From IMG/VR virus record IMGVR_UViG_3300007276_000095, positions 1 through 42,378 of that record: 42,378 bases of DNA. One strand, given 5' to 3'. Each line of letters starts with the position of its first letter. Positions within the stretch are counted from its first letter, which is position 1. A model generated the notes under the pieces. That model was not told the origin of the DNA and searched no databases. It worked only from the letters and a program-made list of their open reading frames with translations. This DNA is from a virus. The translations under genes and the position numbers were made by a program. This document shows, piece after piece, positions 1,604 to 32,165 of this stretch.

Positions 1604-2476
1604 TTATTTCTCACCACACTTTTTACTAGGATCGTTTACTTGCCTCCATTCTTCTTTCTGAAACCAATCTCTAAGTGTAGCGCCTTTCTTTCTAGCTCCT
1701 TTTACATTCGTTTTAGACGATCGTTTGTACTTACCACTTGCTCCCGCTGACTTCTTAGCACTAACAAGCTGTTGTTTTTTAGAAGATGATAATCCTTTAA
1801 TCTTAGCTGCTGGTAAACACGTTTTTGTAGTTCCCCCGCCTTTTTGTTTCTTTTTAATAGGGCTTGATTTCTTACAACTACCTTTAGATCCTTTAGCCGT
1901 ACCAGATACTCTTTCGTATCCTTTCCAACACTTCAAAGGACTGCTAGGCTTAATATGCTCGTACATGTCTTTACCCAGCTGTTCACCTAACTTACTGTCA
2001 GATTTATAATGAGCATGGGCCACGTTTCTACTATAAGATATATCTTTGCCGACTTTTATGAAGTCTTTGGCTAAAGTAGGATATTTATCTCCTAGAAGTT
2101 TAGCTATTAATATACCTTGAGCAGAATGACCCGACGGATAAGATGGTGTTTTCATTGAATCAAGTTCTTTGTCATCAAACTTTATATTGTTTTTCCTAGC
2201 AAGAACTTTAGGCCTAGGTCTATTGTGGTGTTTTTTTATTTTAAGTATAACTTTAGCAGATTCATCTAATATTTTATCTATATCAGATCCGTCTATAGTT
2301 ATATCTTTTTTCTTAGCTATTTTTTGAAAACTAGATTTAACGTCATCTTTTTCTTTAACAAACCTTTCATTAATAGGTATTTTATTCAACTCTTTTATTT
2401 CTTGAGTTGTTTGAAAAGAATCATCATTAGGAGGCTTCTTATCTAAGTACTTTTGTATGTTAAAGTCTTTAAACAT
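1604..2476 (-). CDS. Soluble PAP2-superfamily phosphatase with basic Cys-containing C-terminal modules
   Basis: All three PAP2 (acid phosphatase/haloperoxidase) motifs are present. Numbered from an upstream ATG at 2503 they are: K88-x6-R95-P96, P123-S-G-H126, and S158-R159-x5-H165-x3-D169. The two His and the Arg/Lys residues form the phosphate site in this family. There is no membrane segment, so this is a soluble enzyme rather than an integral lipid phosphatase. After residue 190 comes a very basic tail with CWKGYERV...GSCKK, SSPIKKK, CLPAAKIKGLSSS and DWFQKEEWRQV...CGEK, reminiscent of DUF5872-like modules. I prefer the ATG at 2476 because it overlaps the upstream stop as TAATG; the ATG at 2503 would add nine residues and a 28-bp overlap. 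It is the last gene of the late operon. The substrate is unknown. Confidence 0.85.
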   Translation of the reverse strand: MFKDFNIQKYLDKKPPNDDSFQTTQEIKELNKIPINERFVKEKDDVKSSFQKIAKKKDITIDGSDIDKILDESAKVILKIKKHHNRPRPKVLARKNNIKFDDKELDSMKTPSYPSGHSAQGILIAKLLGDKYPTLAKDFIKVGKDISYSRNVAHAHYKSDSKLGEQLGKDMYEHIKPSSPLKCWKGYERVSGTAKGSKGSCKKSSPIKKKQKGGGTTKTCLPAAKIKGLSSSKKQQLVSAKKSAGASGKYKRSSKTNVKGARKKGATLRDWFQKEEWRQVNDPSKKCGEK

Positions 2477-2775
2477 TATTTTTTTAATTGACCCTTGGTA
2501 CATCTAACACCCCAGCCAGAAGCATAAGCGCTAGGCCAAACTTTAAATTTCTTTTTAGCACGAGCTTTACATGAAGGGCTAATCTTACCTTTCATTGGTG
2601 ATTTCATCTTTACAGCCGTCTTCGGTCCACGACCTTCATTGTCAGGGTGGAATCTAGAAGACTTGTTCATCTCGCCTACTTCTCTACCTTGAGACTTAGC
2701 TACTTGCTCTTCAGGCGAAAGACTTTCGTCTTTACCTTGCATTTTAAACGGATTATTTTTTTGTACGTATGCCAT
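2476..2775 (-). CDS. KNNPF-tagged small basic protein with PSAYASG/Cys module
   Basis: This is a 99-residue, strongly basic protein. It begins MAYVQKNNPF, the decapeptide shared with two other small proteins of this window. The middle contains KSPMKGK. The C-terminal part (SCKARAKKKFKVWPSAYASG, then WGVRCTKG) is a short basic module with two Cys that I associate with small proteins of large marine phages. I cannot assign a biochemical activity. The charge suggests nucleic-acid binding, and the tag suggests delivery to a shared partner, possibly the virion. It sits between another tagged gene and the PAP2 gene, whose start overlaps this stop (TAATG). No catalytic motif or membrane segment is visible. 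Confidence 0.8.
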   Translation of the reverse strand: MAYVQKNNPFKMQGKDESLSPEEQVAKSQGREVGEMNKSSRFHPDNEGRGPKTAVKMKSPMKGKISPSCKARAKKKFKVWPSAYASGWGVRCTKGQLKK

Positions 2776-6916: not shown

Positions 6917-9900
6917 TTAGTCATGCATATAACAGTACTTCTTACCTGACTGAGCCGACTTTTTACACTGAAGGCCTCTAGAAGTATATGCTTGACATTG
7001 ATTAGCTTCTTTTTCTTTTGCTTTTTTTTCTTTTTTCTCTTTCTTTTTTTCTTCTTTTACTTTATCTTTCGCCGCTTCAACCGCTTGTCTTCTTTCGTCT
7101 AAGAACACTGTATACTCATTATCTTTACCTTTGTTACGCACAACCTTTTCGCCAACGTTTAAATCCCAGGAGCTCCAACCTAACGCTAAAAATAACCTCT
7201 GTAGATTAGTATTATCTTGATTCATAGCTTCACGCAGGTTATCCATTTTACGTATAGCCCTAGCCATCGGGATGTTTGTAGTTGCCTCAACAACGTTACC
7301 TATAGCCGTCCAAGCAGGATTGTTATAATCCAGCATAGACATGCTATCCATAGCGTCTTTATTAAACTTCCTAGTAAGCATGGCGCTGTAAAGTTTTCTA
7401 GCTTTAGAACCTATCGGCGGAGACACGTTTAAAGCTTCAACAACTACTTGACCGTAATCTGCTCTAAAACCTTTTTCTTCTTGCTCTATGTATTCCATTA
7501 TAGTATTCTTAATAGTAGCTAAAGCAGCTCCATATATACCAGAGCCTCTTAGTAAAGAATCAAGCATACTGTTTAATATTCTTTGCTCTTTAATCTCTTC
7601 TTTGTCATCATCACTTTCAAAGGCCATTGCAAACAACGCGTTTTGCAAAGCGGCAAATATAAAGTTTTGCACAGCGCCGTAATAAAGTATCCTAGACACA
7701 TTACTTCTCCAGTCACCTCTACGGTTTATTAAATCGCCAGCTGCCTTCTTTATTAAACGATTATACTGCATCGGTGTATTAGCAAACGCAAGTATTATAC
7801 GGCCTAAGTTTGAAGCTTGCTGCTGTGATATACGGTCAGGTCTAGCGGACTGTTGTGTTTCTTCAGCTATTTCTCTAAAATCAAGCATAGCTTGTGACTC
7901 AGCGTCAGCTTGACTCATGCCTTGCTTTAAGTATTTGTTAATTCTATTTCTATAAAATGTAGCGCCACCAGAAGCGATAGCAAAACTATCCGCAACCTGC
8001 GTTGGAGTAAAACCTATTTTAAGCAGGTACCTAAGAGCCGCCATAGCTTTGTTTTTAGCTCCAGCTACAGCGCTAGCGAGCTCAGCTTCATTTACGTTAG
8101 TCGCCAAACCAGCTCTTCTGTTTTTCAAGAAGTCTGAATTAAACAAAAAAGAAAAGTCAGACCAATATTGTTTTTGGTTAGCAAAAGCTTTACCAGCTGC
8201 AAATATGTTGTTGTCTTCAAAGTTAATAAAGTTAACCGTAGATAATGTTTGCAGCACGGCAGATCTAGCGTTAAAGAACATAATAGCGCCAACAGAGCTG
8301 TTAATCCAATTATTCCACTGATTCTCAAACTTAGTTCTACCTTTAGGTCTATTTCTACCAGTCTCCATACGGTATAATATATCTTCTAAAGAAGATCTAA
8401 AGTCACTACCGTATATAGCCTCTATTTTGTTTAAGTTTTTTTCTGAAAATATTATGTCTTTATTTTCTAACCACTCTTGCAAAAACTGAGCTCTTGAAAC
8501 TTTATCTACTAGCTCTTGTAAGTCCATAGCTATATTACCAGTATCCCAGCCGTCAGTAGGCTCTACATATCCAGATTGTTGTTTTGTTATAGCGCTAATT
8601 CTATCAGCGTAAGCTCTCAGCGAAGGATCGTTTTTAACTAAGTTGATTAGTTGTTGTTTAGAGCTTTCAGCTAAACCAGGTATTTCATAGCCAGCTTTAG
8701 CGTAGAGATAAACTCTTATAGCAGCATCAAAAGTAAATCCTTTTACATCCGTTAACTTACCTAACTTCTTTTTAACATCTTTAAACTCTTTGTTTAAGGC
8801 TTTATACTGATCTCTAATACCTTGTTTCATTTGGCTCATCTCACGATCAGCTTTAGCGAAAGGCTTAACTAAATACTCTTCAAAGAATTTTATATCAGCA
8901 TTACCCTGCTCGCCCTTGCCAACAAAATACCGTAATAACCCCGTGAAATCTTCTGCAGAAGGTGGTACAAATAGTGTAAAGCCACCTTTGTTTTTTCCTC
9001 GCTTTCTAGCCTCAACCCTAGAAAATGTTTTTACAGCATCAACACCTTTAGTTCTTTCGAGCATGTTGTTAAACTCAGTGTCAACGTCTTTGCTAAACCT
9101 AACTTGAACAGACTTACCCTTAATGTCTAGTTGGTTAAACACATGTTGTACAGCTTCAACGTTTTGCATAGCGTCATCTACAAAGTACATATCATTGTAT
9201 CCTTCGGCGTACTTATTAAGCATCCAAGCAGCCTTGGCATCACCCGTGCTATTTCCTAAGCCAGTAATATTTTCTAAAGGTATATCTACACCTTGATCTT
9301 TTAAAAACTGATATATTGGACCGGCGGAAGCAGCAGGTCTAGCGGTTAATACATACACATTATCTGACCCATACTTTTTAATTTGATTCTTCATCTTTTG
9401 TAAAAGAGGACCAGGTGTTCCATCTACTACTTTATTAAACTCTGAAAAATCATACTCAGCACCTTGAGCAAGTAAGTCCGCCCCACGTAAAGCAAAGTCT
9501 TCAGCGTTGATTCTATCTTTTATATAGCCTTTCGTGAAGTCGTCCATTTCTTTAACGAACTCGGCTGGTAGCGCTTCTCCTTGTTTTAAGTTGTCTGTGT
9601 TTATTTCCACAAAGCCTTTAGCAGAGTATGGAAAAAATGTTACCATCTCTTTAAATGCTTTTTTGTTTTTCTTAGCTGACTCTATACTGTTTCTAACGGT
9701 AGCATCGGTTAGTCTTCTTTCAGATCTATTCGCGTTTCTTTCTAACGCTGTTTCTAACGAAGACTCAATGAACACTATCTGAACATCGTAACCGGCGTCT
9801 TTAAACTCTCTAGCCATACTTTCAAACTGAACGCCAACGGCACCAGTGCCATCGATCACAACACCATCGCCTTGACCTCTTAGTTTTGAAGCTTTATTCT

Positions 9901-12900
9901 TAGCTGCAACTGCTGCTTGACCTCCAAGCTCTCTCCACTTTTCAGCTTGCTCTCTAGTAAACTCATTCATATCTTTTGGTAAACCATTGTTTTTGGTTAA
10001 CCAGTCTAAAGCTATATCTTGATTTACGTATTTAAAGCCTTGCTTTCTTAAACCTAACTGATTTATAACAGTAGTTTTACCGGCGCCAGCGTTACCAGCT
10101 ATTAGTATAGCTTTTCTTTTTGGTTGAGGCTTACCACTTGGATTAGGCATTGTTAATCTAATACCAGATTTAGTAAAGGCTAATGTGTCGTCAAAGTCGA
10201 ACGTAGACATACCTCTTGGTTCAGCATCTCTACTCATAGCTTGAAAAGCTTGATCGGCCTTTTCTAATCTAGTCTCGCTAGTTGTTTTTACTTTGACAGG
10301 GTATCTACTTATATATTCGTTAAGCTTTTTGTTGGCTTGCTCTTGTGTTATTTGCCCAGAAAATATTTGAAATAATAAATCTTGCTGCATTGAAACAACG
10401 TTAGCGTTGCTATATAAAGAACTGTTTATTCCAACGTTATATTCTTGAGCAATTGTATTTCCATTAGCTAACACTATAAAGTTAGGGTTTATACCTCCAG
10501 CGTTGTTATTGACGTTAGGATTAAAATATCTAATCCAAGCAGGAACTTCACCGGTAAACACTTTAAACTGCCACTCTTTAGGTATTTGCGAAACGTAATT
10601 AAACTCTCCAAGCTTTTTAAGTAAGTTGTCGTATATCTTTGGAAGACCACCTTGCATGTAAGCTTTCATAGCGTTATCAATATACTGATCAACAACACCC
10701 ATCTTTGAAAGTGTAAATAAAATCTTGCCAAACTCTGTTGCTGGCTGCGTGTGCTCTTCTACGTTTTCTAAACCTAACGTATTATGAAAACCATATCTAG
10801 CACCTGTTCTCATGAAGTGCCCTTGGTTTACAGCTGAAGACTCTAGTAGTGCTCCAACAAAAGCTACGTTAGAAGACTCTTTCATTAAATCTTGCAGTAT
10901 AGACCAAACTTCCTTAAAACCTTGATCAGACTGATCTAACAGATCTTGATTGTTGCTAAACCACTCTTGAGCTTGCGCGTTTGTAAACTTACCATACTTA
11001 ACAGAAACTTTAGCCATAGCCGCAACGTTGCTAGACTCTGGAGCAAATTCAACTCCCTCCATAACAGCTTCAAATTGAGCTTTATTTGCAAACGCGTATT
11101 TAGGGCTAGCTGGCATTAAACTTAATTCGTAAGCTTTAAAGTTAGGGTTGTTATTTCTTACTTTTTTACCGTCTAGTAAAGTATATTCTTTTAATTTTTT
11201 CTTTGTCTTTTCTAACGTTACATTACCTTCAGTATCTACGTATAGCTGTCTACCGTTTTTGTCGTTTGTATATTCGTTTCCGTTTTCGTCAACGTTTATA
11301 TTTTTAGCGCCAGCCGCGTATAAGTTGCCACCGGTAAAAAACGATCTAGGTAATTCTTTAGCAGCAACCGTTGCTAACCAGTTTATGTAAGCGCCTCTAT
11401 CCTTACCGCTTATATCTAAAAGCGTAGCACCCATGCCTGTTATTATCTTAGGCCATGTTGGATCCATGTACGTTATAGCATCAGATACGTCTTTTGAAAA
11501 CAACACATCTGACATACCGTCTGCTATTTGAGCAGCAGAAGGATCAATAGTTCTAAGGGCTTGATTTGTGATTATCTTACCCATTAAGTTTGCCATAGCT
11601 AGCGCTCTAGCCGATGTGTTTCTATCTGTTCGATCAGCGACTCCTTCAACAATACCAAACACCTCTAGAAAGTCAGAGTCTAGTATATTTGTTTTTTTAA
11701 CCTGAGTTTTTAATCCGGCTTTAGTTTTAGCTCTTGAAGATCTTTTATTGTAAAAAGCATCCAATAAAGTTTTAGGCACGCCTGTAGCCTTACCTTCAGA
11801 GTCAAAGCCTTGTGGTAGCATGTCTATTAGCAAGCCTACGTTTCTTCTAACAAACATCTGCATGCTAGCTAACTCACTTTTAGAGAGGTTAGCAAGGTTT
11901 TTTAATTTTTTAACAGGTATGCCAGTTAAATTAGAAACTGTCTGCAAAGCGGCGTTAGGCACTTTTTTAAAATTAAGCATAACTTTAGGATCTATCCCAG
12001 CCGCCTCAATCTCTGCTAAAACTTCAGCTTGAATACCAAGTCTTTCAGCTACATTTATTAATTTAACTTTTCTTTCAGGCGCTTTAATCTCTGCTGTTTC
12101 TTCGGCTGCAACACCTCTAGCTTCAGTGACGTCATCTTCAAATTGCTCTTTTAATATTCTATTAGCAGACTCAATAGCTCTTGAAGGTAAATACTTATTT
12201 ATATAAGCGGCTAAAGGTACTCCTGAATTAGGATCGTAATCCCTTATCAAGTCGTATATACCTCTTTGACCTATTTCTATTTCGCTAATCATCATCTCTA
12301 AATCAAAGCCAGGTACTTCTCTATACTTGTTTGCTATTCTAGTTGTTATAGGTTTGAACAGTTGGAATATTTCAAACGCTCCGTCAACACCGCTAGTTTC
12401 ATAAAGATTTTGAACAGCATCAGACGCATCTTTTGATTCTGCCTCAAACTGCTCGGCGTTTTCTTCGCCGTCTTCTTCAGACATCATATCTCTAAACACT
12501 TGATCTATCTCTGCTATTTCTCCAGAAACTTTAAAACCGTCAACAGCTCCTATTCGCATAGCTTCGTTTAAAGTTCCGCTCTGTATACCTCTACTATAAT
12601 CTTCTAAAAAATTATAGACGTCCATAGGATTTTTAAACTTATAAGGTATACCAAGGTTCTTAAAAACTCTAGAAAACATTGCGCCAATTTTTTCAAATGT
12701 AGTTCTGTTATACTTCATTTGACCAGTAGCTATTGCATCAGCGACCAACGTTAATACCTCTTCAGCTTGTTTAGCGCTAGTAAGAGGTACTTGCCCCGCG
12801 GCGTTTGGATCTCTATACGCGTTAAGTCTATTTATAAACCTAGCATTATTTTTGGTGATAAACGGCTGAATATCTCCAAGCATGTTTAACAAAGAGTTTC

Positions 12901-15900
12901 CTAGAGCGTAGGCTGTGGTTGGATTATTTTGCAACGTTGTTCTTAGTACACCGTGCAAAAACTCGTGAGCCGCTACATTCACGCCTTCGTTAGTAGTTTT
13001 TTTCATAGCGTTAACGTATATGGTTTTACTACCATCTTTGTTTACTTTTATACTACCGAAAGATCCGTCCGCTTCTTGCCCAAATATTTGAACAAGAGTT
13101 CCGTTTGTAACTTCTACAACATTCATGTTTTCACCAAACATACTTTCTGCAAGATCTTTAACGTTTGCTATTGTAGTTTTAGATTGTTCTTTAGCTTGCT
13201 GCTTTATTATAGGCTTTAGTATTTCTTGTCTTTTAGTTTCAAGCTCTTGTATCTTTTCATCTATTTTTTTAGCGGTGTTTGTTTTTTCTTCAGCGCTAAT
13301 CATGGAAGATTCTTTAGCGTCAGCCTTATCATCTTCTAGTTGTTGTATTTTATCTTCTATAGATTCAACTTCATTTCTAGAATCAGAGTCTAAAGCTTCT
13401 ATAGCTTTGATCTCGTTGGCGGTTTTAATATCTGTAAAAGTAATTCTAGTGTTTTCATACTGAAGAGCGTCTGCGTTACCATCTTGCTCCATCATTGCTG
13501 AATACAGTGATAAAGCGCCTTTACCGTCATTCTTTATATACACCAATGGGTTTTCACCATTTGCTCTTCTTCTGTTGTACTCTTCTTGTAACTCTTGAAC
13601 CGTAGAGAAGTTTTCGCCGTCCATTCGATAAACTTTATTGTGTTTACCTTTTATGATCTTAGAGACCGTCCCTGGAGCCGAGAACATTACCTGCATAACA
13701 CCCATGGTTAAACCAGTTTCTTTCAAGAATTGAGAATCTAATCCTTCAAATAAGTCGTTGCCTTCAACTAGGTTTTGCAAAGGAAGGTTTATAATTTCTT
13801 CAGCCATCTCTCCAAACATGCCGTCAAACCCAACTTTATTTCCTATACTATTCATAAACTGACCGGTACCAGTCAATCCTTTCTTATTAAAGTATCTAGA
13901 CACTATAGTTCTTCGCAGCCACTCAGGATCGTTCAGCACATCATTTTTGATAAATTTTCCTAGCTTTGGAAATCCAGCGCCTAGTCTTTCTGTAAAATAT
14001 TCTAAAAAGTTAACGCCAAAAGCTTTAGCGAAAGCTTTATCAAAAGCCTCAACATCATAGTCACCGTTTTTATCAAGTGCATAGCCACCGTTGATTGAAA
14101 GTTGACTCATTATATCGTCGCCATCGCTAGTAATCATTAGCTTTGCTTGCGGTGTCATTCTCTCAAGAGTAGAGTCTAGATAGTTAGTAGGTATAACAGC
14201 CGACTGAGCACCGGCGGCCAGCACAACTGAAATACCGTCTATTATGTTTCCTTTGATAGTTCTTTTACTAACGTCTTCAATCAAGCCATCGTATATGCCT
14301 TCTTTTAACGTTCTTTCCAACTTATCTTTTACTACTTTTTTAGCACCAGTAAAAACGCCTCTAGTAAGATATATTTCAGCTACCCAAGGAAACATTTCAG
14401 CTAACATTTTACCAGAGTTATACGCTGTCTCACCTTTCGTAAGTTCATTAAACTTATTATCAGAAAGTTGCTTTGTTGCTAGCGAGCTCAATACAATCTG
14501 CTCAGCAGGACTTAGCTCTTCCCCGCTCTCTTTCTTTTTAAATAAACTATAAGCCTGTAAGGCGTCAAAAGTACTAGCAACACCCCCAACAATAGGTATA
14601 TAGTCAAGACCAGACTCTAATCCTAGCGCTCCTTGAAAAAACTTTGCAAAACCACTTTCCGCTAGCTTTTCAGGTCTTTGCAAAGCAACTTCTAGCTTGT
14701 CTTTCGCCATCTTGAGGTTGTTGTATTCAGAAGCCGCTTGCTCATACTGCTCCTTGGTGTACACTCCGTAGCTAGCTATATTAATCATGCCCGCCATGTC
14801 TACATTGTAAGAATCTACAATTGGTGTAACTCTTTCAAGCTCTTTGTCTATAGCTTCTAAAAGATCTTTAGAAACTTCATCTATGCCAAACCTTGTCATG
14901 TCACCACTAATATCGAAAGTCATGTCATTCCAAAACTTATGGTAGTACTCTGTTTTTCTATTTAGTATTTCTGTTTCATCTGTCATACCAGCTTGTTTCA
15001 AACCTATTTCTATGTTTGTCCAAGCATTATCTAGCATTAATCTTTTCGTGTCATTAGTAGCTGTGTCCCAGCCGTTTAATCTAAATTGCTTAGTTAGATC
15101 GTCATATTTTTCTCTACCAATTAAATCTGTTGGAGGTATGTAGTTTTGAAAAAACTCTATTTGCTTTCTTTGAAACTCTTTTTCGTTAGCAGAAACGTAG
15201 TCGTCATATCTAGCTCCAATATATTTGTTTAATTCTTGGTTAGCTTGCTCGCTGTATAGTCCACCTATCTCCTGCTGTTTAGCATTAACTTCAGCGGTAA
15301 ACATCTGTTGAACTTGCTCTTGGCTCATGTCGGCAAACTCTCCGTCTTGTTGTCTTTGTTGAAAAGATTGAAGAAGCGTCTCTTGAAAAGCGTCAAGTTC
15401 TATTTGCATTTCTTTTACATACTTTTGCTGTATGCCATTGTTTATAGCATCTATGTCTTTTTGGTACTGCTCTTTAAACCTGTCGTTAAATTCTATATTA
15501 TAGCTAGCCGCCCAGTCTTCGTACGCTTCGTTTTGATTTTTTTGTTTTCTATTTAAAAACTTTTCAGCGTCCATGTCAGACTCTTCCACAAAAAACTCTA
15601 CGCCATCTATTGATGTTCCGCTAGTTCTTTCTTGAAGCAAGCTCCAGTCTGACTTGTGGTTAGCGTACATGTTGTTAACTGTAGATAAAGCAAGGTCAAA
15701 GTCGTTGATAAAAGCTTGAGGGTCTTTTTCTATGGCTTCTTTTTCTTCCTCAGTCAACAACCTACCATCAGAAAGTTTTTTTGCTTGCTCTTGCAAATTA
15801 ACTTTATACAAGTTTGCTTCAAATACGTTAATGTCCTCTTCTATAACAGCGCTTTCGCTGTCGGTATAACTGTAAACTATTTCGTCTTCTCCAGCAGGAT

Positions 15901-16390
15901 TATAGATAGTTTTTCTGTTTATGTTTTTAAAAGTAGTATTATCACCTACCTCTTCGTCTACGATTTCTTCACCATCAAACTCTTGCTCTACTATAGAGCT
16001 TTTTTCAATAACTGGCTTCTCGTCTGCTAATTCATCTTTTTCTTTATATACTTCTAAAAGATCTTGCTTCTGCTCCTCATGCTGTAAAAGATTAGACATG
16101 TCTGTTGATACGTTAGATATGCTAGTCTGATCTTGAGCTTGAGGTTCTAAAAGTTCGTAAGGTTTAAACTCATGATTTGCTTTTGTTAAACCTGGTAACT
16201 CCAACGAAGTATTTACCGAGGTGGATGCCGTACTTCCTGTGCTCACACTCGCATCCGGTGTTTGTGAGCTGTTCGACTTTCCCAGGCCCATCTCTTCAAT
16301 GTAATCTTCAACTTCCATTTCAGACTGCTTAGCAAAGTCTAGTACTTCTTTTTCTGAAAGTTCTTTGCCTCCTTGCGTTATATAAGACAT
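6917..16390 (-). CDS. Giant polyvalent internal virion protein (HExxH, sigma-like, HAD/kinase, membrane and zinc modules)
   Basis: This 3157-residue protein is probably packaged and injected. Modules in order are: an acidic Gln/Glu-rich N-terminal third with amphipathic segments (about 590-620 and 700-760); a HExxH metallopeptidase-like motif HEFLH (1142-1146); a segment like sigma-70 region 2 (DYDPNSGVPLAAYINKYL, 1384-1401); a HAD phosphatase motif I DFDDTL (2065-2070); a P-loop kinase GNAGAGKT (2099-2106) with VVIDGTG and an Arg-rich lid; and later HAD motifs VLTARP (Thr2349), Lys2386 and VDDAMQN (Asp2405). Then come a phage polyvalent-protein C-terminal region with a hydrophobic stretch near 2900-2925, a Lys/Glu tract, and a terminal C-x9-C-x10-C-x2-H module (3132-3156). 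It follows two internal virion protein genes. Motifs are read directly; packaging, injection and enzyme activities are inferred. Confidence 0.85.
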   Translation of the reverse strand: MSYITQGGKELSEKEVLDFAKQSEMEVEDYIEEMGLGKSNSSQTPDASVSTGSTASTSVNTSLELPGLTKANHEFKPYELLEPQAQDQTSISNVSTDMSNLLQHEEQKQDLLEVYKEKDELADEKPVIEKSSIVEQEFDGEEIVDEEVGDNTTFKNINRKTIYNPAGEDEIVYSYTDSESAVIEEDINVFEANLYKVNLQEQAKKLSDGRLLTEEEKEAIEKDPQAFINDFDLALSTVNNMYANHKSDWSLLQERTSGTSIDGVEFFVEESDMDAEKFLNRKQKNQNEAYEDWAASYNIEFNDRFKEQYQKDIDAINNGIQQKYVKEMQIELDAFQETLLQSFQQRQQDGEFADMSQEQVQQMFTAEVNAKQQEIGGLYSEQANQELNKYIGARYDDYVSANEKEFQRKQIEFFQNYIPPTDLIGREKYDDLTKQFRLNGWDTATNDTKRLMLDNAWTNIEIGLKQAGMTDETEILNRKTEYYHKFWNDMTFDISGDMTRFGIDEVSKDLLEAIDKELERVTPIVDSYNVDMAGMINIASYGVYTKEQYEQAASEYNNLKMAKDKLEVALQRPEKLAESGFAKFFQGALGLESGLDYIPIVGGVASTFDALQAYSLFKKKESGEELSPAEQIVLSSLATKQLSDNKFNELTKGETAYNSGKMLAEMFPWVAEIYLTRGVFTGAKKVVKDKLERTLKEGIYDGLIEDVSKRTIKGNIIDGISVVLAAGAQSAVIPTNYLDSTLERMTPQAKLMITSDGDDIMSQLSINGGYALDKNGDYDVEAFDKAFAKAFGVNFLEYFTERLGAGFPKLGKFIKNDVLNDPEWLRRTIVSRYFNKKGLTGTGQFMNSIGNKVGFDGMFGEMAEEIINLPLQNLVEGNDLFEGLDSQFLKETGLTMGVMQVMFSAPGTVSKIIKGKHNKVYRMDGENFSTVQELQEEYNRRRANGENPLVYIKNDGKGALSLYSAMMEQDGNADALQYENTRITFTDIKTANEIKAIEALDSDSRNEVESIEDKIQQLEDDKADAKESSMISAEEKTNTAKKIDEKIQELETKRQEILKPIIKQQAKEQSKTTIANVKDLAESMFGENMNVVEVTNGTLVQIFGQEADGSFGSIKVNKDGSKTIYVNAMKKTTNEGVNVAAHEFLHGVLRTTLQNNPTTAYALGNSLLNMLGDIQPFITKNNARFINRLNAYRDPNAAGQVPLTSAKQAEEVLTLVADAIATGQMKYNRTTFEKIGAMFSRVFKNLGIPYKFKNPMDVYNFLEDYSRGIQSGTLNEAMRIGAVDGFKVSGEIAEIDQVFRDMMSEEDGEENAEQFEAESKDASDAVQNLYETSGVDGAFEIFQLFKPITTRIANKYREVPGFDLEMMISEIEIGQRGIYDLIRDYDPNSGVPLAAYINKYLPSRAIESANRILKEQFEDDVTEARGVAAEETAEIKAPERKVKLINVAERLGIQAEVLAEIEAAGIDPKVMLNFKKVPNAALQTVSNLTGIPVKKLKNLANLSKSELASMQMFVRRNVGLLIDMLPQGFDSEGKATGVPKTLLDAFYNKRSSRAKTKAGLKTQVKKTNILDSDFLEVFGIVEGVADRTDRNTSARALAMANLMGKIITNQALRTIDPSAAQIADGMSDVLFSKDVSDAITYMDPTWPKIITGMGATLLDISGKDRGAYINWLATVAAKELPRSFFTGGNLYAAGAKNINVDENGNEYTNDKNGRQLYVDTEGNVTLEKTKKKLKEYTLLDGKKVRNNNPNFKAYELSLMPASPKYAFANKAQFEAVMEGVEFAPESSNVAAMAKVSVKYGKFTNAQAQEWFSNNQDLLDQSDQGFKEVWSILQDLMKESSNVAFVGALLESSAVNQGHFMRTGARYGFHNTLGLENVEEHTQPATEFGKILFTLSKMGVVDQYIDNAMKAYMQGGLPKIYDNLLKKLGEFNYVSQIPKEWQFKVFTGEVPAWIRYFNPNVNNNAGGINPNFIVLANGNTIAQEYNVGINSSLYSNANVVSMQQDLLFQIFSGQITQEQANKKLNEYISRYPVKVKTTSETRLEKADQAFQAMSRDAEPRGMSTFDFDDTLAFTKSGIRLTMPNPSGKPQPKRKAILIAGNAGAGKTTVINQLGLRKQGFKYVNQDIALDWLTKNNGLPKDMNEFTREQAEKWRELGGQAAVAAKNKASKLRGQGDGVVIDGTGAVGVQFESMAREFKDAGYDVQIVFIESSLETALERNANRSERRLTDATVRNSIESAKKNKKAFKEMVTFFPYSAKGFVEINTDNLKQGEALPAEFVKEMDDFTKGYIKDRINAEDFALRGADLLAQGAEYDFSEFNKVVDGTPGPLLQKMKNQIKKYGSDNVYVLTARPAASAGPIYQFLKDQGVDIPLENITGLGNSTGDAKAAWMLNKYAEGYNDMYFVDDAMQNVEAVQHVFNQLDIKGKSVQVRFSKDVDTEFNNMLERTKGVDAVKTFSRVEARKRGKNKGGFTLFVPPSAEDFTGLLRYFVGKGEQGNADIKFFEEYLVKPFAKADREMSQMKQGIRDQYKALNKEFKDVKKKLGKLTDVKGFTFDAAIRVYLYAKAGYEIPGLAESSKQQLINLVKNDPSLRAYADRISAITKQQSGYVEPTDGWDTGNIAMDLQELVDKVSRAQFLQEWLENKDIIFSEKNLNKIEAIYGSDFRSSLEDILYRMETGRNRPKGRTKFENQWNNWINSSVGAIMFFNARSAVLQTLSTVNFINFEDNNIFAAGKAFANQKQYWSDFSFLFNSDFLKNRRAGLATNVNEAELASAVAGAKNKAMAALRYLLKIGFTPTQVADSFAIASGGATFYRNRINKYLKQGMSQADAESQAMLDFREIAEETQQSARPDRISQQQASNLGRIILAFANTPMQYNRLIKKAAGDLINRRGDWRSNVSRILYYGAVQNFIFAALQNALFAMAFESDDDKEEIKEQRILNSMLDSLLRGSGIYGAALATIKNTIMEYIEQEEKGFRADYGQVVVEALNVSPPIGSKARKLYSAMLTRKFNKDAMDSMSMLDYNNPAWTAIGNVVEATTNIPMARAIRKMDNLREAMNQDNTNLQRLFLALGWSSWDLNVGEKVVRNKGKDNEYTVFLDERRQAVEAAKDKVKEEKKKEKKEKKAKEKEANQCQAYTSRGLQCKKSAQSGKKYCYMHD

Positions 16391-27632: not shown

Positions 27633-28541
27633 CTAGTGTTTAATTTGTTTTGACTTACCTCTTAATACTTGAGTTATTTCTTCTAGTTTAATGTTTGATA
27701 ATCTTAGCTTAGCCTGTCTCTTTGCGGCTCTAGCCTCTCTTTTAAACCTGTCAACTAAGTATTCGGGCGTGTTAGCCTTAGTTGCTAAAACAGCGTGAGC
27801 TATATACTTGTACATTGCTTCTTCTGCGAACTTATGCACTTGCATCTCGTCTTCAGTTCCTAAGCTATCACTTATGTACTTTAGTATTACAGGGTTACCG
27901 CTTAAAGTTGAAGAGAAATGTATCTTACCTTTCAATTCGTCTATGTAGAATGTCCCGTTAGTCTGAGCGAACTGAGGATCAATACCAAATCTTTGGCCAT
28001 AATTAGCGTCGTAGTGGCTGGTGTCATAATCTCTTATATGGTCAATGTCAACGCTAGATAGATCGTCGTTACCTTTGTATCTATCCCAAGTTGTTGAGTC
28101 TGAAGTTTGTATCTCATCACTATTTAGAGTATAATCACCGTTAGCATCTTGTGCTATTTTCTGTGGATTACTAGATATTCTAGCTGGATGTAGTATGTGC
28201 TCTACACCTGAAGAATCACTGTAAGTTAGTTTGACGTAATTAACGTAGTCGTGAGGCAATGGCATTTGAAGTGTTGCCGGTACTACTATTTCTTGAGCTT
28301 TAGTTGACTTAAACGTGTCAAAGCTCAACTCTTGTAAAGCTCTTTGAGCGTGAAATACTACGTCAAGTCTTTTTATTTTAGATATAATTTTATCTTCTCC
28401 AACGTAGGCTAACATAAACTGATCTATAACAACCTGCAGTGAAGTAAATTGATAGTTACCGTATTGAGTGTCGTCTGCTGTGTTTTGAGTGTTATCAGCA
28501 CCTTGATAATAATTTCCTGTTGTTCCTTCAAATAACGGCAT
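27633..28541 (-). CDS. Head-tail connector / ring protein 2 (P22 gp4-like position)
   Basis: This 302-residue protein lies between the first connector and the muzzle. The body (LQVVIDQFMLAYVGEDKIIS, then DVVFHAQRALQELSFD and LPHDYVNYVKLTY) has the helical-bundle-plus-beta layout of adaptor proteins that stack on the portal in podoviruses. The C-terminal helices (KFAEEAMYKYIAHAVL, then KREARAAKRQAKLRLSNIKL) are typical of the same class and would face the portal. There are four bases to the muzzle start and three to the previous stop. I assign the class by gene order and pattern; which ring it forms cannot be told from sequence. Confidence 0.78.
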   Translation of the reverse strand: MPLFEGTTGNYYQGADNTQNTADDTQYGNYQFTSLQVVIDQFMLAYVGEDKIISKIKRLDVVFHAQRALQELSFDTFKSTKAQEIVVPATLQMPLPHDYVNYVKLTYSDSSGVEHILHPARISSNPQKIAQDANGDYTLNSDEIQTSDSTTWDRYKGNDDLSSVDIDHIRDYDTSHYDANYGQRFGIDPQFAQTNGTFYIDELKGKIHFSSTLSGNPVILKYISDSLGTEDEMQVHKFAEEAMYKYIAHAVLATKANTPEYLVDRFKREARAAKRQAKLRLSNIKLEEITQVLRGKSKQIKH

Positions 28542-28544
28542 ATA

Positions 28545-29705
28545 TTATTGTTTTTCTTGTTGTAAGTTTTCTTGTTGCTCTAATGAAGCTGCTTGAACTA
28601 AACCTGGTTTATTTATAACTATACCGGCTAACTCTAGTATCTTGTATACTAAAGGCATTTCTTCAGATCCATGAAGATCAAAGTTTTTGCTATTAGAAGC
28701 GTTGTACATTGGATACTCATTTCCTCCGCTGCTATTTGGAACTATAGTATATCCCCAGTATACATCTTCTGGTCTTTTTATAAAGTTGTGTGTTATAGTA
28801 TCTGCAGACGATGGAGTTGGATATAGCTTTATAGACGTATCGCTTACCCTAACGTACACAGGATTTTTACTAGTAGGTCTAGCTAAAGGCGAAACGTTGT
28901 ATTTTGTTATTTCGTTAGCGTTTACTAGAGGTACTTGAGTAGCGTAACTTTGACCAGATCTTTGCCACATAACTTCACCTAGTCTATAAACAGTGTTAGT
29001 ACCGCTATCGCCAATGCTTGTATTATCTACTTCTTTAATAGATATACTACCAAAAGTTATGTATTTACCTGCGTTATTAGTATCAGAATTTATAATTCTT
29101 ATATTGTGATTACTAGTGGCGTCTGCTATAAAAGTAAAGCTGAAAGAACCAATTGAAGGTTCGTTTTGTTGGTAATTGATTGCGTTTAATCCCGCATCAT
29201 CAATAATTACATAGTAAGATGATGGCTCGTCCATATCTATAATCTCCCAATTTACTACATATTTTTTACCTGCTGTCAAAGCAACATTAGTACCACTTTC
29301 AGCAGTGTGGGTAGCTCCGCTTGCGTTTTGCAAAACTTTTAAACCTCCATTGTAGTTATTAGATGCTGCTGGAGCAACGTGCGTAGACGTACCGTTTGCG
29401 CCCGCGGTCCAGTCTGCTATGTCAAGTTCAAAATCATCTTCAAACTTAGCACTTGAGATAAGAGATTGATCATTAATTTTAAACGGAGCTATTTTTTCTT
29501 CTAATATATGAAGCATGTCAGCGTACTCGGTTGAGTTGCCTGGAGCTCTATTATACAAGTTTATGTCATAAAAATATTGCTCAAATATTTCCATCTGAGC
29601 TTGGTTGGCTAGTAAATTAAATTCAAGAGGCGTTACATAGCCTCTTTGTTCTTTATTAGCAAGCGCTAACACTCTTTGATATACTGTGTTTATATTTACC
29701 GCCAT
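28545..29705 (-). CDS. Head-tail connector / ring protein 1 with inserted carbohydrate-binding-like domain
   Basis: The N-terminus (residues 1-80, with VYQRVLALANKEQRGYVTPL and FNLLANQAQMEIFEQYFYDI) and C-terminus (about 235-386) look like one connector protein. Residues about 84-228 form an inserted jelly-roll domain of carbohydrate-binding-module type: FELDIADWTAG near its start, GKKYVVNWEI in the middle and ITFGSISIKEVD at the end. The last of these is the strand that typically closes CBM/galactose-binding-like folds. The insert is Ser/Thr/Asn/Ala-rich compared with the Gln/Glu-rich flanks. Such an insert would project from the neck. It is the first connector gene after the MCP and the 278-residue head protein. 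Confidence 0.78.
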   Translation of the reverse strand: MAVNINTVYQRVLALANKEQRGYVTPLEFNLLANQAQMEIFEQYFYDINLYNRAPGNSTEYADMLHILEEKIAPFKINDQSLISSAKFEDDFELDIADWTAGANGTSTHVAPAASNNYNGGLKVLQNASGATHTAESGTNVALTAGKKYVVNWEIIDMDEPSSYYVIIDDAGLNAINYQQNEPSIGSFSFTFIADATSNHNIRIINSDTNNAGKYITFGSISIKEVDNTSIGDSGTNTVYRLGEVMWQRSGQSYATQVPLVNANEITKYNVSPLARPTSKNPVYVRVSDTSIKLYPTPSSADTITHNFIKRPEDVYWGYTIVPNSSGGNEYPMYNASNSKNFDLHGSEEMPLVYKILELAGIVINKPGLVQAASLEQQENLQQEKQ

Positions 29706-29765: not shown

Positions 29766-30602
29766 TTACGCGTTTAAACGCTTTTCAATATTGGAGTATA
29801 TCTCCATTCCTTCATCTGTTTTAAACCAAGCGGCTAAAGCAGAATACGGGTGTTCATCAAATGGTACTGTCATAATTTTTCTATCATTTGAAGCCCACAT
29901 AAAGTTACGTTGATCTCCTGATAGTTTGATTATTCTAGCTTCTACAGCTTTAATACCAAAATTTCTAAGTTGAACATTATCGTCTGTAGTTAATTCTAAG
30001 AACAGTTTAGGATTTCTTTTAGCAAATAGTAGTAAATCTCTTTTAAGCTCCTTAGAACTCAACTCATTTACTTTAGATCCCATTTCTACTCTCATTATAG
30101 CTTCAGCCATGTCAATATCCATTGACCTTGCTATAGTTAAAGCTTCAACTTCAAACTCTAACCAATCTAATTGATTTTCTGCAATTTCGACAGGTTTGTG
30201 TTCGTAAAAAATACTGTCTCTGTGAGGGTGGTACAAAGAAAGTAGCTTTTGTAAAACAGTTTCTTCTTTTGGGACAAACAAAGATCCACTTCTAAATATA
30301 ATATGTGATAATCTTTGATCGCCTTTCATTTCGTCAACAAAGCATGTTTGCTGATTCTTGCAATACTTAAGCTCTCTTTCAAATCCTTTTTCCTCGTCAA
30401 AGTAATAAACATTTGCAGATCGTATCATCTTAGATAAAGGCTTTTTGCCGCCTTTCAAATGATACACTCTATCTTTTATTTCCCAATCGGGTTTTTTTGG
30501 TTCTGGTTTAGCTTCTACTTTAGGAGCTTTAACCACCGGCGTATCGATCACCGCTTCTTGAGGCGCTACCTCAACTGTTTTAGCTGTTTGCTTTTTAGCC
30601 AT
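29766..30602 (-). CDS. Conserved head protein of unknown function
   Basis: This 278-residue protein has a Lys/Ala/Pro/Val-rich, probably flexible N-terminal 40 residues. A compact domain follows, with DRVYHLKGGKKPLSKMI, Cys81/Cys87 in a YCKNQQTCF segment, and a helical C-terminus (about 145-278). I have seen this gene type directly downstream of the MCP in marine Bacteroidota phages, but know no assigned function. It could be a head-completion or auxiliary capsid protein. It is separated from the MCP by a strong terminator, so it is expected to be expressed at a lower level than the MCP. Confidence 0.72.
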   Translation of the reverse strand: MAKKQTAKTVEVAPQEAVIDTPVVKAPKVEAKPEPKKPDWEIKDRVYHLKGGKKPLSKMIRSANVYYFDEEKGFERELKYCKNQQTCFVDEMKGDQRLSHIIFRSGSLFVPKEETVLQKLLSLYHPHRDSIFYEHKPVEIAENQLDWLEFEVEALTIARSMDIDMAEAIMRVEMGSKVNELSSKELKRDLLLFAKRNPKLFLELTTDDNVQLRNFGIKAVEARIIKLSGDQRNFMWASNDRKIMTVPFDEHPYSALAAWFKTDEGMEIYSNIEKRLNA

Positions 30603-30668: not shown

Positions 30669-32165
30669 CTACTTCATGATCATAAAGTTGTTAGCACCTT
30701 GAGTGACTAAACATCTTTCTGATAAGAAGTGGATTTGCATTGCATCTAAAGCAGACGTCGAAGCTCCAACTGAACCAGTAGTCCAAGTTTTCATCTTACG
30801 ATTATCTGTTTGAGAAGCTCTATAACGAACATGTAAGAAAGGACGCTTAAGGTTCTTTCCTAAAGACTGATCGTATACAGTTGATGTACCTGCAGGAATA
30901 ATAACCCCACGGATAGCGTTAGCGCCAGCCGCATCGTTAATACCACCACGAGTAGCTTTGTCGTTTAAGTAACGGAAGTCAGACTTATAGAAGTCGTAAG
31001 ATCCTCTACGGAAACCAGAAAAACCTAAGTTTAACGCCATATCCTCATCGTTTTCGAATACTCCGTAAGAAGTACCACCAGCACCATAAGAATTCATAGA
31101 AGCTAACATATCGTCCATTGCTAAACTAGTAGCGCGGTTAACGAATAACATGTTCTCTTCAATAGCACCTTGCTTATCAAATTCAGCTAAGATAGCATCA
31201 AACTCAGCTAAGTCAGTAGCAGCGTTAACACCAGTTACACCTGAAGTTTCATTACCTCTTGACTCAATAGCAGCGAACAAACCTTCAGTACCAGTTTGAT
31301 TGCCAGCAGCGTTGTACATAACGTTAGAGCTTTCAGTAAGGTCATTTGCAGCGCCACCAAGCTCACCTTCAAGCATAGACATCTCTAAGTAGTCGTTAAA
31401 ACGAGCTCTTGTGTCAGCCTCAGCTTTTAAGTACCATAAGTAACCTGACTGTCCTTCCTCACCTGTAACTTCAACCCAACCGATTCTAGCTGTATCAGAT
31501 CCTGATACTTCGTAGTAATCTTTAATAATGATTGGCTTGTTGCTATAAGTTTGCATTTTAGGCTCGTTAGCGCCCCTTGAGTCAGACTGTGTAACAGCGT
31601 TGCCACCGTCAAAGTAACGAGTACCTTTAGCGTATTCAGAACCGTAAACTAAGATAGTTGTTCCGTCTGTAGCTGTGTTTTGAGATAGCGTAGCTGTTCC
31701 GTAAGGAGCAACGTCAATAACTTCGTTAGCTACAGTTACAACTAAACACTTAAAAACACCGTCAGAGTTTGCAACAACAACAGTGTCGTTAACTCTAATA
31801 GCGTGATCAACTGATCCTGATGATACACCCGCACCGTCAATCTCTTTAGTTAATGTAATTTGAGATACAGAATCTTGACCACCAGAAGCGCTTGATACGT
31901 TTCCTGTGTAAGATATGTGTAAACGTCCTTGTTCAGACCATACAACCTGATCAGCTTGCATTGCCTCTTCAGCGCCTATTTTAGATAAAAAGCCTGCGAT
32001 AGTTCTCGGTCCGAAAACTTCAGCCTCTTTTTCCATAAGGTCTGGTAAGTATTGTTGAGCCCAAGTAGTATCACTTGTACCCGTAAAGTCTAGATAGTTT
32101 GTGTTTAGCGTCTGCTTATTTGGAGCAGGAGTGCTATTCAAACTAGGTCCATTAGTAATTGCCAT
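30669..32165 (-). CDS. Major capsid protein (HK97 fold, crAss-like)
   Basis: This 498-residue protein lies downstream of portal and scaffold. The N-terminal segment is NYLDFTGTSDTTWAQQYLPD; the middle contains YLWYLKAEADTRARFNDYLE, which fits the spine helix of HK97-type capsids. The C-terminal half carries FLHVRYRASQTDNRK and HFLSERCLVTQGANNFMI. Length and context match crAss-like MCPs of about 490-500 residues. Residues about 95-195 are a Ser/Thr/Gly/Val-rich beta region, possibly an inserted surface domain. It has an A/T-only leader and is followed by a strong terminator, consistent with very high expression. The fold is inferred from family resemblance. Confidence 0.88.
   Translation of the reverse strand: MAITNGPSLNSTPAPNKQTLNTNYLDFTGTSDTTWAQQYLPDLMEKEAEVFGPRTIAGFLSKIGAEEAMQADQVVWSEQGRLHISYTGNVSSASGGQDSVSQITLTKEIDGAGVSSGSVDHAIRVNDTVVVANSDGVFKCLVVTVANEVIDVAPYGTATLSQNTATDGTTILVYGSEYAKGTRYFDGGNAVTQSDSRGANEPKMQTYSNKPIIIKDYYEVSGSDTARIGWVEVTGEEGQSGYLWYLKAEADTRARFNDYLEMSMLEGELGGAANDLTESSNVMYNAAGNQTGTEGLFAAIESRGNETSGVTGVNAATDLAEFDAILAEFDKQGAIEENMLFVNRATSLAMDDMLASMNSYGAGGTSYGVFENDEDMALNLGFSGFRRGSYDFYKSDFRYLNDKATRGGINDAAGANAIRGVIIPAGTSTVYDQSLGKNLKRPFLHVRYRASQTDNRKMKTWTTGSVGASTSALDAMQIHFLSERCLVTQGANNFMIMK

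Follow-up and report, generated by a model that had tools for sequence, protein, structure and literature searches.

A CBM-fold domain predicted within a tail-barrel ring protein of a probable marine Bacteroidetes phage, and its exchange by recombination

The window, the whole stretch of DNA analysed here, is a linear virus record of 42378 bases. One protein of its structural operon, 386 aa long, carries an accessory domain that is present or absent at a single point of the chain and that has been swapped between lineages by recombination, the protein otherwise being little changed. The domain is predicted to be a separate jelly-roll of the carbohydrate-binding-module (CBM) fold, and its host is, on profile comparison, better described as a tail-barrel ring protein than as a connector. 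CBMs at the neck are already known from lactococcal phages; a CBM-like domain within the barrel ring is a new variation. Neither the recombinational exchange of the insert nor the insertions that we find in a neighbouring protein had been part of the earlier note on this DNA.

The phage is probably short-tailed, marine and Bacteroidetes-infecting. Its cultured named relatives infect Flavobacterium, Cellulophaga and Maribacter; seawater, a Baltic Sea mesocosm and a Baltic sponge are among the sources from which named relatives were isolated. Homologues also occur at 12 loci in genome bins. Six of these bins are labelled Bacteroidetes, Sphingobacteriales or Flavobacteriaceae, and the remaining six Maricaulis (2), unclassified bacterium, Ilumatobacteraceae, Pelagibacter and Aliivibrio, although misbinning of phage contigs may play a part.

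The ring protein and its operon

The structural operon runs in the order terminase, portal, 370-aa ORF, probable major capsid protein, 278-aa ORF and then the 386-aa, 302-aa and 2623-aa proteins (Table 1). Flavobacterium phage elemoF and Cellulophaga phage phi40:1 have the same gene order without the insert, and in Maribacter phage Panino several small ORFs intervene.

Table 1. Features of the window, with the evidence for each assignment
Feature	Positions	Strand	Evidence
Probable insert-bearing ring (adaptor-type) protein of the tail barrel, 386 aa	28545-29705	-	phrog_14543 virion structural protein, E 2.2e-29
Predicted ring-protein core, N-terminal helical part, residues 1-79	29469-29705	-	model helices 5-18, 26-52 and 64-75; aligns with relatives
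Predicted CBM-like jelly-roll insert, residues ~82-229	29019-29462	-	AlphaFold2 model, Foldseek, VIA, absence from most homologues
Predicted C-terminal core, residues 236-386: remaining beta domain and two C-terminal helices	28548-29000	-	model; aligned with insert-less relatives
Ring/adaptor-like protein downstream, 302 aa, undecorated here	27633-28541	-	phrog_13977, E 3.1e-41
Muzzle/nozzle-like protein, 2623 aa	19758-27629	-	Pfam crAss_MUZ_C, E 3.3e-9; phrog_14478 virion structural, E 2.1e-107
278-aa ORF between major capsid protein and ring protein	29766-30602	-	phrog_34748, E 3.1e-23; position of crAss001 gp33
Virion structural protein, 498 aa, in the major capsid protein position	30669-32165	-	phrog_13704 head and packaging, E 2e-94; position of crAss001 gp32
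Low-identity stretch in the 5' part of the 498-aa gene	about 31305-32130	-	position transferred from L085
Portal protein, 807 aa	33333-35756	-	phrog_6547 portal, E 1.2e-145
Terminase large subunit, 738 aa	35759-37975	-	phrog_6681, E 3e-170
3157-aa ORF	6917-16390	-	P-loop kinase-like domain near residue 2090 (AAA_33, E 3.3e-10); PHROG polynucleotide kinase, E 2.2e-7; weak LPD14 match
299-aa ORF	1604-2503	-	PAP2 phosphatase domain, E 9.5e-7, 29.1 bits against a cutoff of 27.2

A profile of 34 insert-less relatives of the 386-aa protein matches the crassvirus gp34/gp35 family with an hhalign score of 85.5% (E 5.6e-6 for the single pair), the crassvirus profile being made of eight proteins: crAss001 gp34, gp35 and six gp34 homologues. 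The alignment is nearly full length, with columns 28-211 on 29-233, and the C-terminal core is colinear with the crAss001 ring family; the two share a homologous core of helices and beta domain. Against crAss001 gp34 alone the core profile scores 48.5%, and against crAss001 gp43 0.2%. Three other profile pairings made in the same way stay below 1%, but one of these joins two adaptor-type families, and a low score therefore does not show absence of kinship. Similarity to SU10-type adaptors is weaker (hhalign 56%): Pfam SU10_adaptor is found at E<=0.1 in seven of the 34 insert-less relatives (best 1.3e-4), and the window protein, at 12.8 bits, falls short of the gathering score of 27 of that family (PF24175). 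No solved structure matches the ring-protein core, and its identity comes from the profile comparison.

The ring proteins of crAss001 assemble into dodecamers that lie in its tail barrel, with the portal on one side and the muzzle on the other (PMC10172136). The earlier note had read the 386-aa protein as a head-tail connector with the domain mounted on the neck. Its assignment to the virion proteins of the head-tail region stands, the phi40:1 homologue being annotated 'structural protein' from MS/MS, but the protein looks like a ring protein of the crassvirus tail-barrel type. The gp34/gp35 match of the core, together with a crAss_MUZ_C domain in the 2623-aa neighbour (residues 1665-1762, 37.5 bits against a cutoff of 27), places the domain probably on the tail barrel rather than on a portal-bound connector. 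A dodecameric ring, the copy number and the exposure of the domain would follow by analogy with crAss001.

The 2623-aa muzzle-like protein is much longer than crAss001 gp44, which has 1371 aa by its coordinates, and probably contains large insertions of its own. Elsewhere in the window, the 3157-aa ORF perhaps encodes a polyvalent or ejected virion protein.

Fold, sequence family and distribution of the insert

The AlphaFold2 model of the whole 386-aa protein, built on 43 aligned sequences, has a mean pLDDT of 84.1 and a pTM of 0.60, with ten-residue blocks from 81 to 230 at 69-93. In this model the insert is all-beta and forms a two-sheet CBM jelly-roll (CBM4/16/22/61-like fold) over residues 82-229, in close agreement with the earlier note, which had proposed such a domain at residues 84-228 (29022-29456). 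In a Foldseek search against the PDB, CBM16, a xylan-binding CBM and CBM4 come out on top (best E 4e-7). In the VIA comparison, where the best matches cover model residues 84-227 or thereabouts, the highest score, Z 15.6, belongs to residues 333-480 of the endo-arabinanase EndoMA1 chain (rmsd 2.1 A, 136 aligned), followed by 14.8 for both a porphyran-binding CBM (2.1 A, 130 aligned) and CBM4-2 (2.3 A, 139 aligned); CBM4-2, CBM16 and the porphyran CBM together span 14.3-14.8, and CBM61 reaches 13.2. All 50 VIA matches listed lie at Z 13.2-15.6, 48 of them with an rmsd of 2.1-3.2 A. Since models without a clear Foldseek match typically reach a best Z of 7-8, the fold match goes beyond chance. 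Among viral structures the insert is closest to a 242-aa protein (E 9.8e-11, TMt 0.67), and tail fibres and CBM-cenC proteins are among the named matches further down. Other users of the fold come up in the PDB searches too, namely Cry toxin domains and, as proteins that do not bind sugars, an ephrin receptor (by Foldseek), a meprin MAM domain and HpiC1-type cyclases, so that the fold alone does not prove sugar binding.

At the level of sequence the insert stays outside the described families. The window, L001-L005 (L-numbers denote IMG/VR loci) and ten relatives of the neighbouring 302-aa protein have no match to Pfam CBM families, CBM_4_9 included, at E<=1. NCBIfam gives the inserts sub-threshold matches only, to GTA_spike_fiber (E 0.0015 for L004, 0.03 and 0.09 for the window); the L004 match, to the GTA head spike fibre domain NF048003, lies across the insert end (L004:4523-4765) at 19.1 bits against 36. 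Nothing in PHROGs is secure for the inserts, the best match (0.0015) having no description. Matches to CBM22 chains (E 0.07-0.18) disappeared with a profile of window-type inserts only (A3), and with profiles A4, A8 and A9 the PDB yielded no CBM chain. Nor could the window-type inserts be established as one sequence family with those of the L003/L004 type (hhalign 12.7%, E 0.0023).

The distribution of the insert was examined in the best 80 of 203 relatives retrieved with the insert-bearing query, 75 of which have complete ORFs. The flanks align with insert-less relatives as one continuous protein, and 66 of the 75 complete homologues, 225-270 aa long, have no domain at the insertion point of the window; the earlier note had read the flanks in this way, and the alternative that every homologue carries the segment does not hold. 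Five complete homologues (L001-L005, 387-405 aa) bear an insert at this point, site A, a count that is no frequency because an insert-bearing query favours carriers in the ranking. Another four (L032, L035, L038 and L048, 311-351 aa) bear an insert at a second point, site B, immediately before a 'P..V.W' motif. The truncated loci are L011, L018, L027, L052 and L053, with a site-A insert in L011 and a site-B insert in L018. In four of the five site-B loci (L032, L038, L048 and the truncated L018) the module is short, beta and repeat-like; that of L035 is larger and reads CBM-like.

Further scans found a window-type insert at the same point in L082/L083, L084, L088, L090, L092 and the partial L093. 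Scanned for at the DNA level, the window insert had confirmed relatives only in the ring protein, first at three loci and then at nine; at all nine the insert occupies the same point, in divergent forms. Named phages yielded no carrier in the matches listed (60 of 70 with the insert-bearing query, each 669 bp long and too short for an insert; 12 of 85 named-phage records with an insert-less query, each a single piece of 648-753 bp). Against the phage collection the window insert has no match at E<=1. No donor emerged either: scans of the L004, L005 and L007 types led to their own contigs, known carriers and L129 (L107 and L127 are the contigs of L011 and L010). The segment L129:3001-3141 is a partial relative, on another contig, of the insert in the L007 neighbour protein (52% over 54 residues).

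Exchange of the insert, and insertions in the 302-aa neighbour

The ring proteins of L082 and L084 have cores that are 97-99% identical and inserts that are 70% identical, dS being 0.041 for the core and 0.756 for the insert. The window and L082 show the reverse: their inserts are 80% identical, their C parts 56%, and dS is 1.30 in the core and 0.206 in the insert. With L001 and L002 the window shares 95% of the N part and 81-88% of the C part, but only 50% and 47% of the insert. This pattern of dS excludes mere fast evolution of the protein. DNA identity, computed in 150-base windows from the ATG of the ring-protein gene, changes near the domain borders. Between L085 and L087, the contigs of L082 and L084, it is 66-81% in windows 275-575, as against 91-100% from -475 to 125 and 93-100% from 650 to 2150; between the window and L085 it is 78-94% in windows 251-626, as against 50-79% from -499 to 176 and from 701 to 1151.

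In AU tests the insert data reject the groups {window,L001,L002} (p 0.0021) and {L088,L090} (p 0.025) and do not reject {L082,L084} (p 0.34), and the core data reject {window,L082} (p 1.9e-40); these p values are post hoc, {window,L082} and {L001,L090} having been picked after the identity table and the others partly so. Among eight window-type carriers mean column entropy amounts to 1.14 bits for the insert, as against 0.60 for the core. Strand 163-169 has one variable face, with 2.4 bits at 163, 165 and 167 and 0.5 at 164 and 168, which as a sign of glycan binding is only suggestive. In all eight pairs computed dN is below dS in the insert, which speaks for exchange and divergence and does not prove positive selection.

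The probable major capsid gene shows a contrast of its own between the near-identical phages L085 and L087, with 76-95% DNA identity in the first half and 96-99% in the second. Its 5' part looks like a second exchange-prone stretch, perhaps corresponding to the capsid insertion domain.

Insertions are also frequent in relatives of the 302-aa protein. Among 58 representatives with data for this neighbour, 24 contain at least 100 additional residues as an internal insertion, eight have an N-terminal extension and 26 neither. The extensions, about 80-150 aa before the ring-like core, are seen in L006, L013, L021, L025, L049, L055 and L061. The inserts differ in kind, and those of L007, L060, L071 and L075 read CBM-like; membership of the L007/L075-type inserts in the sequence family of our insert could not be established (36% over 47 columns; 1.5%), although, when 1961 translated open stretches were compared with profile A2, the neighbour protein of L075 reached E 1.9e-4. 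This L075 protein gave a poor model, with a pLDDT of 55.6 overall and values below 50 in much of the insert. Each of the first 19 matches of its core region is to a portal-tail or neck chain of a phage or phage-like particle, at Z 6.8-9.4 and rmsd 3.4-10.1 A, and its insert, in this low-pLDDT model, matches CBM4-type chains at Z about 6. Where Z stays below about 8, a core match of this kind may reflect no more than a common arrangement. An adaptor- or connector-like 302-aa protein with partly CBM-like inserts is thus suggested at low confidence only. Its identification as the portal-end ring was dropped: it has no profile match to crAss001 gp43, gp34 or SU10 adaptors, and no secure Pfam hit.

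A decorated neighbour occurs with none of the 10 site-A carriers and with 32 of the 48 other representatives (Fisher p 1.0e-4; 58 of 70 representatives). This set was drawn from 83 rows, after L011, L018, L027 and L053 had been dropped as truncated, and L084 was kept by hand though nearly identical to L082. Mutual exclusion of insert and neighbour decoration was nevertheless not accepted, as shared descent explains the counts equally well: two changes suffice for the site-A insert on the tree, grouping all carriers in one clade is compatible with the data (p 0.70), and well-supported branches provide only one independent pair.

What the insert may do

CBMs at comparable places provide the closest precedents. 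The neck passage structure (NPS) of 936 and P335 lactococcal siphophages likewise places a CBM at the head-tail junction (PMC6669499; background on NPS CBMs in PMC4759559). The NPS CBMs of 936 phages are reported to bind host cells weakly; in these systems a near-identical N-terminal part goes with variable distal groups, and binding is of low affinity and presumably accessory (PMC6669499), features that our protein would share, its own binding being putative. The NPS CBM, however, is modelled at the C-terminus of a separate collar fibre protein, on a coiled coil (PMC6669499), whereas here the domain is inserted in the middle of a ring protein with ring core on both flanks, so that the window protein does not belong to the NPS proteins. 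A recent exchange of domains is also reported for neck passage proteins, which in close relatives are nearly identical elsewhere (PMC10684548); there the exchanged part is a non-homologous C-terminal domain, and here it is internal and comes in divergent forms of one CBM-like domain.

The crAss001 proteins gp34 and gp35 share with our protein a core homologous over most of its length and a muzzle-like protein encoded nearby, but gp34 has 238 aa and no such insert, and the word 'carbohydrate' does not occur in the main text of PMC10172136. SU10/T7-type adaptors also tolerate an extra domain beside the helix bundle; theirs is a dock domain reported to hold long tail fibres (PMC9509320), and their sequence similarity to our core is weak. 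The marine roseophage R4C has CBM-like domains on baseplate proteins (a Dit insertion and the megatron), with a proposed grip on the capsule, at the baseplate of a long tail and not on a barrel ring (PMC10276861). A CBM has further been proposed on the turrets of the archaeal virus HFTV1 (PMC12494034) and predicted in the tailspike of phage Peru-2 (PMC13320782). In the literature searched, with subscription journals mostly outside its scope, we found no description of a CBM inside a ring or adaptor protein.

We consider it fairly likely that the CBM-fold insert, located directly behind helix three, where the beta domain of the ring protein begins, gives the particle a weak, high-avidity grip on the sugar coat and is swapped as host coats change. 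About twelve copies would stand out from the tail barrel, if the dodecameric rings of crAss001 are a guide. Each copy would bind a bacterial surface or capsule glycan weakly, the ring as a whole with high avidity, and the particle could thus be kept within the coat as its fibres and muzzle search for the receptor. Domain swaps would then follow changes in the sugars of the host coat. Glycan binding is the conditional step of this proposal.

We think it improbable that the domain binds no sugar and serves as a structural spacer or stabiliser, padding the barrel or touching the capsid, the muzzle or neighbouring rings. The non-sugar uses of the jelly-roll and the lack of a Pfam CBM match would suit such a role, as would the finding that most homologues examined do without the insert and some bear different modules elsewhere, as if any folded domain were tolerated. 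A spacer should co-evolve with its core, yet the insert is common to cores at dS 1.3 and replaced at dS 0.04, and its retention at the same point in divergent forms at all nine confirmed loci also argues against this role. Also unlikely, in our estimation, is a domain that binds environmental sugars (marine gels, algal polysaccharide, particles) in place of the host coat and so raises the encounter rate. CBMs for porphyran and xylan, which are algal and plant polysaccharides, are among the top fold matches, and the marine sources of the named relatives fit; but a ligand cannot be read from a fold match, our data do not distinguish between host and environmental glycans, and the neck CBM of PMC6669499 bound host cells, if weakly. 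A docking platform for a tail fibre or spike, swapped with the fibres, is less likely still: SU10 and T7 adaptors have a fibre-dock domain and those of P22 and Sf6 do not (PMC9509320), and the weak kinship of our core to SU10 adaptors points the same way, but the best fold matches of the insert are CBMs, the SU10-like region is the beta part of the core, which is present without the insert, and the inserts of L085 and L087 differ while most windows of the stretch compared (-2950 to 4925) are 90-100% identical.

A wider reading, to which we give rather less than even credence, is that the two ring-like proteins form a modular display platform, with at least four insertion points (two per family) for different modules, several of them CBM-like. 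Recombination would reshuffle the CBM, so that the barrel, and not the fibres alone, would set which sugar coats can be held, and a CBM in one ring would appear to exclude decoration of the other.

Fibres and spikes are usually credited with host recognition in short-tailed phages. If the coat grip that we favour is real, the tail barrel would carry a second, hidden layer of specificity besides them. The domain is small and expressible, and its natural variants on near-identical scaffolds, such as L082 and L084, would allow a direct test of accessory sugar grip against the host coat in marine Bacteroidetes.
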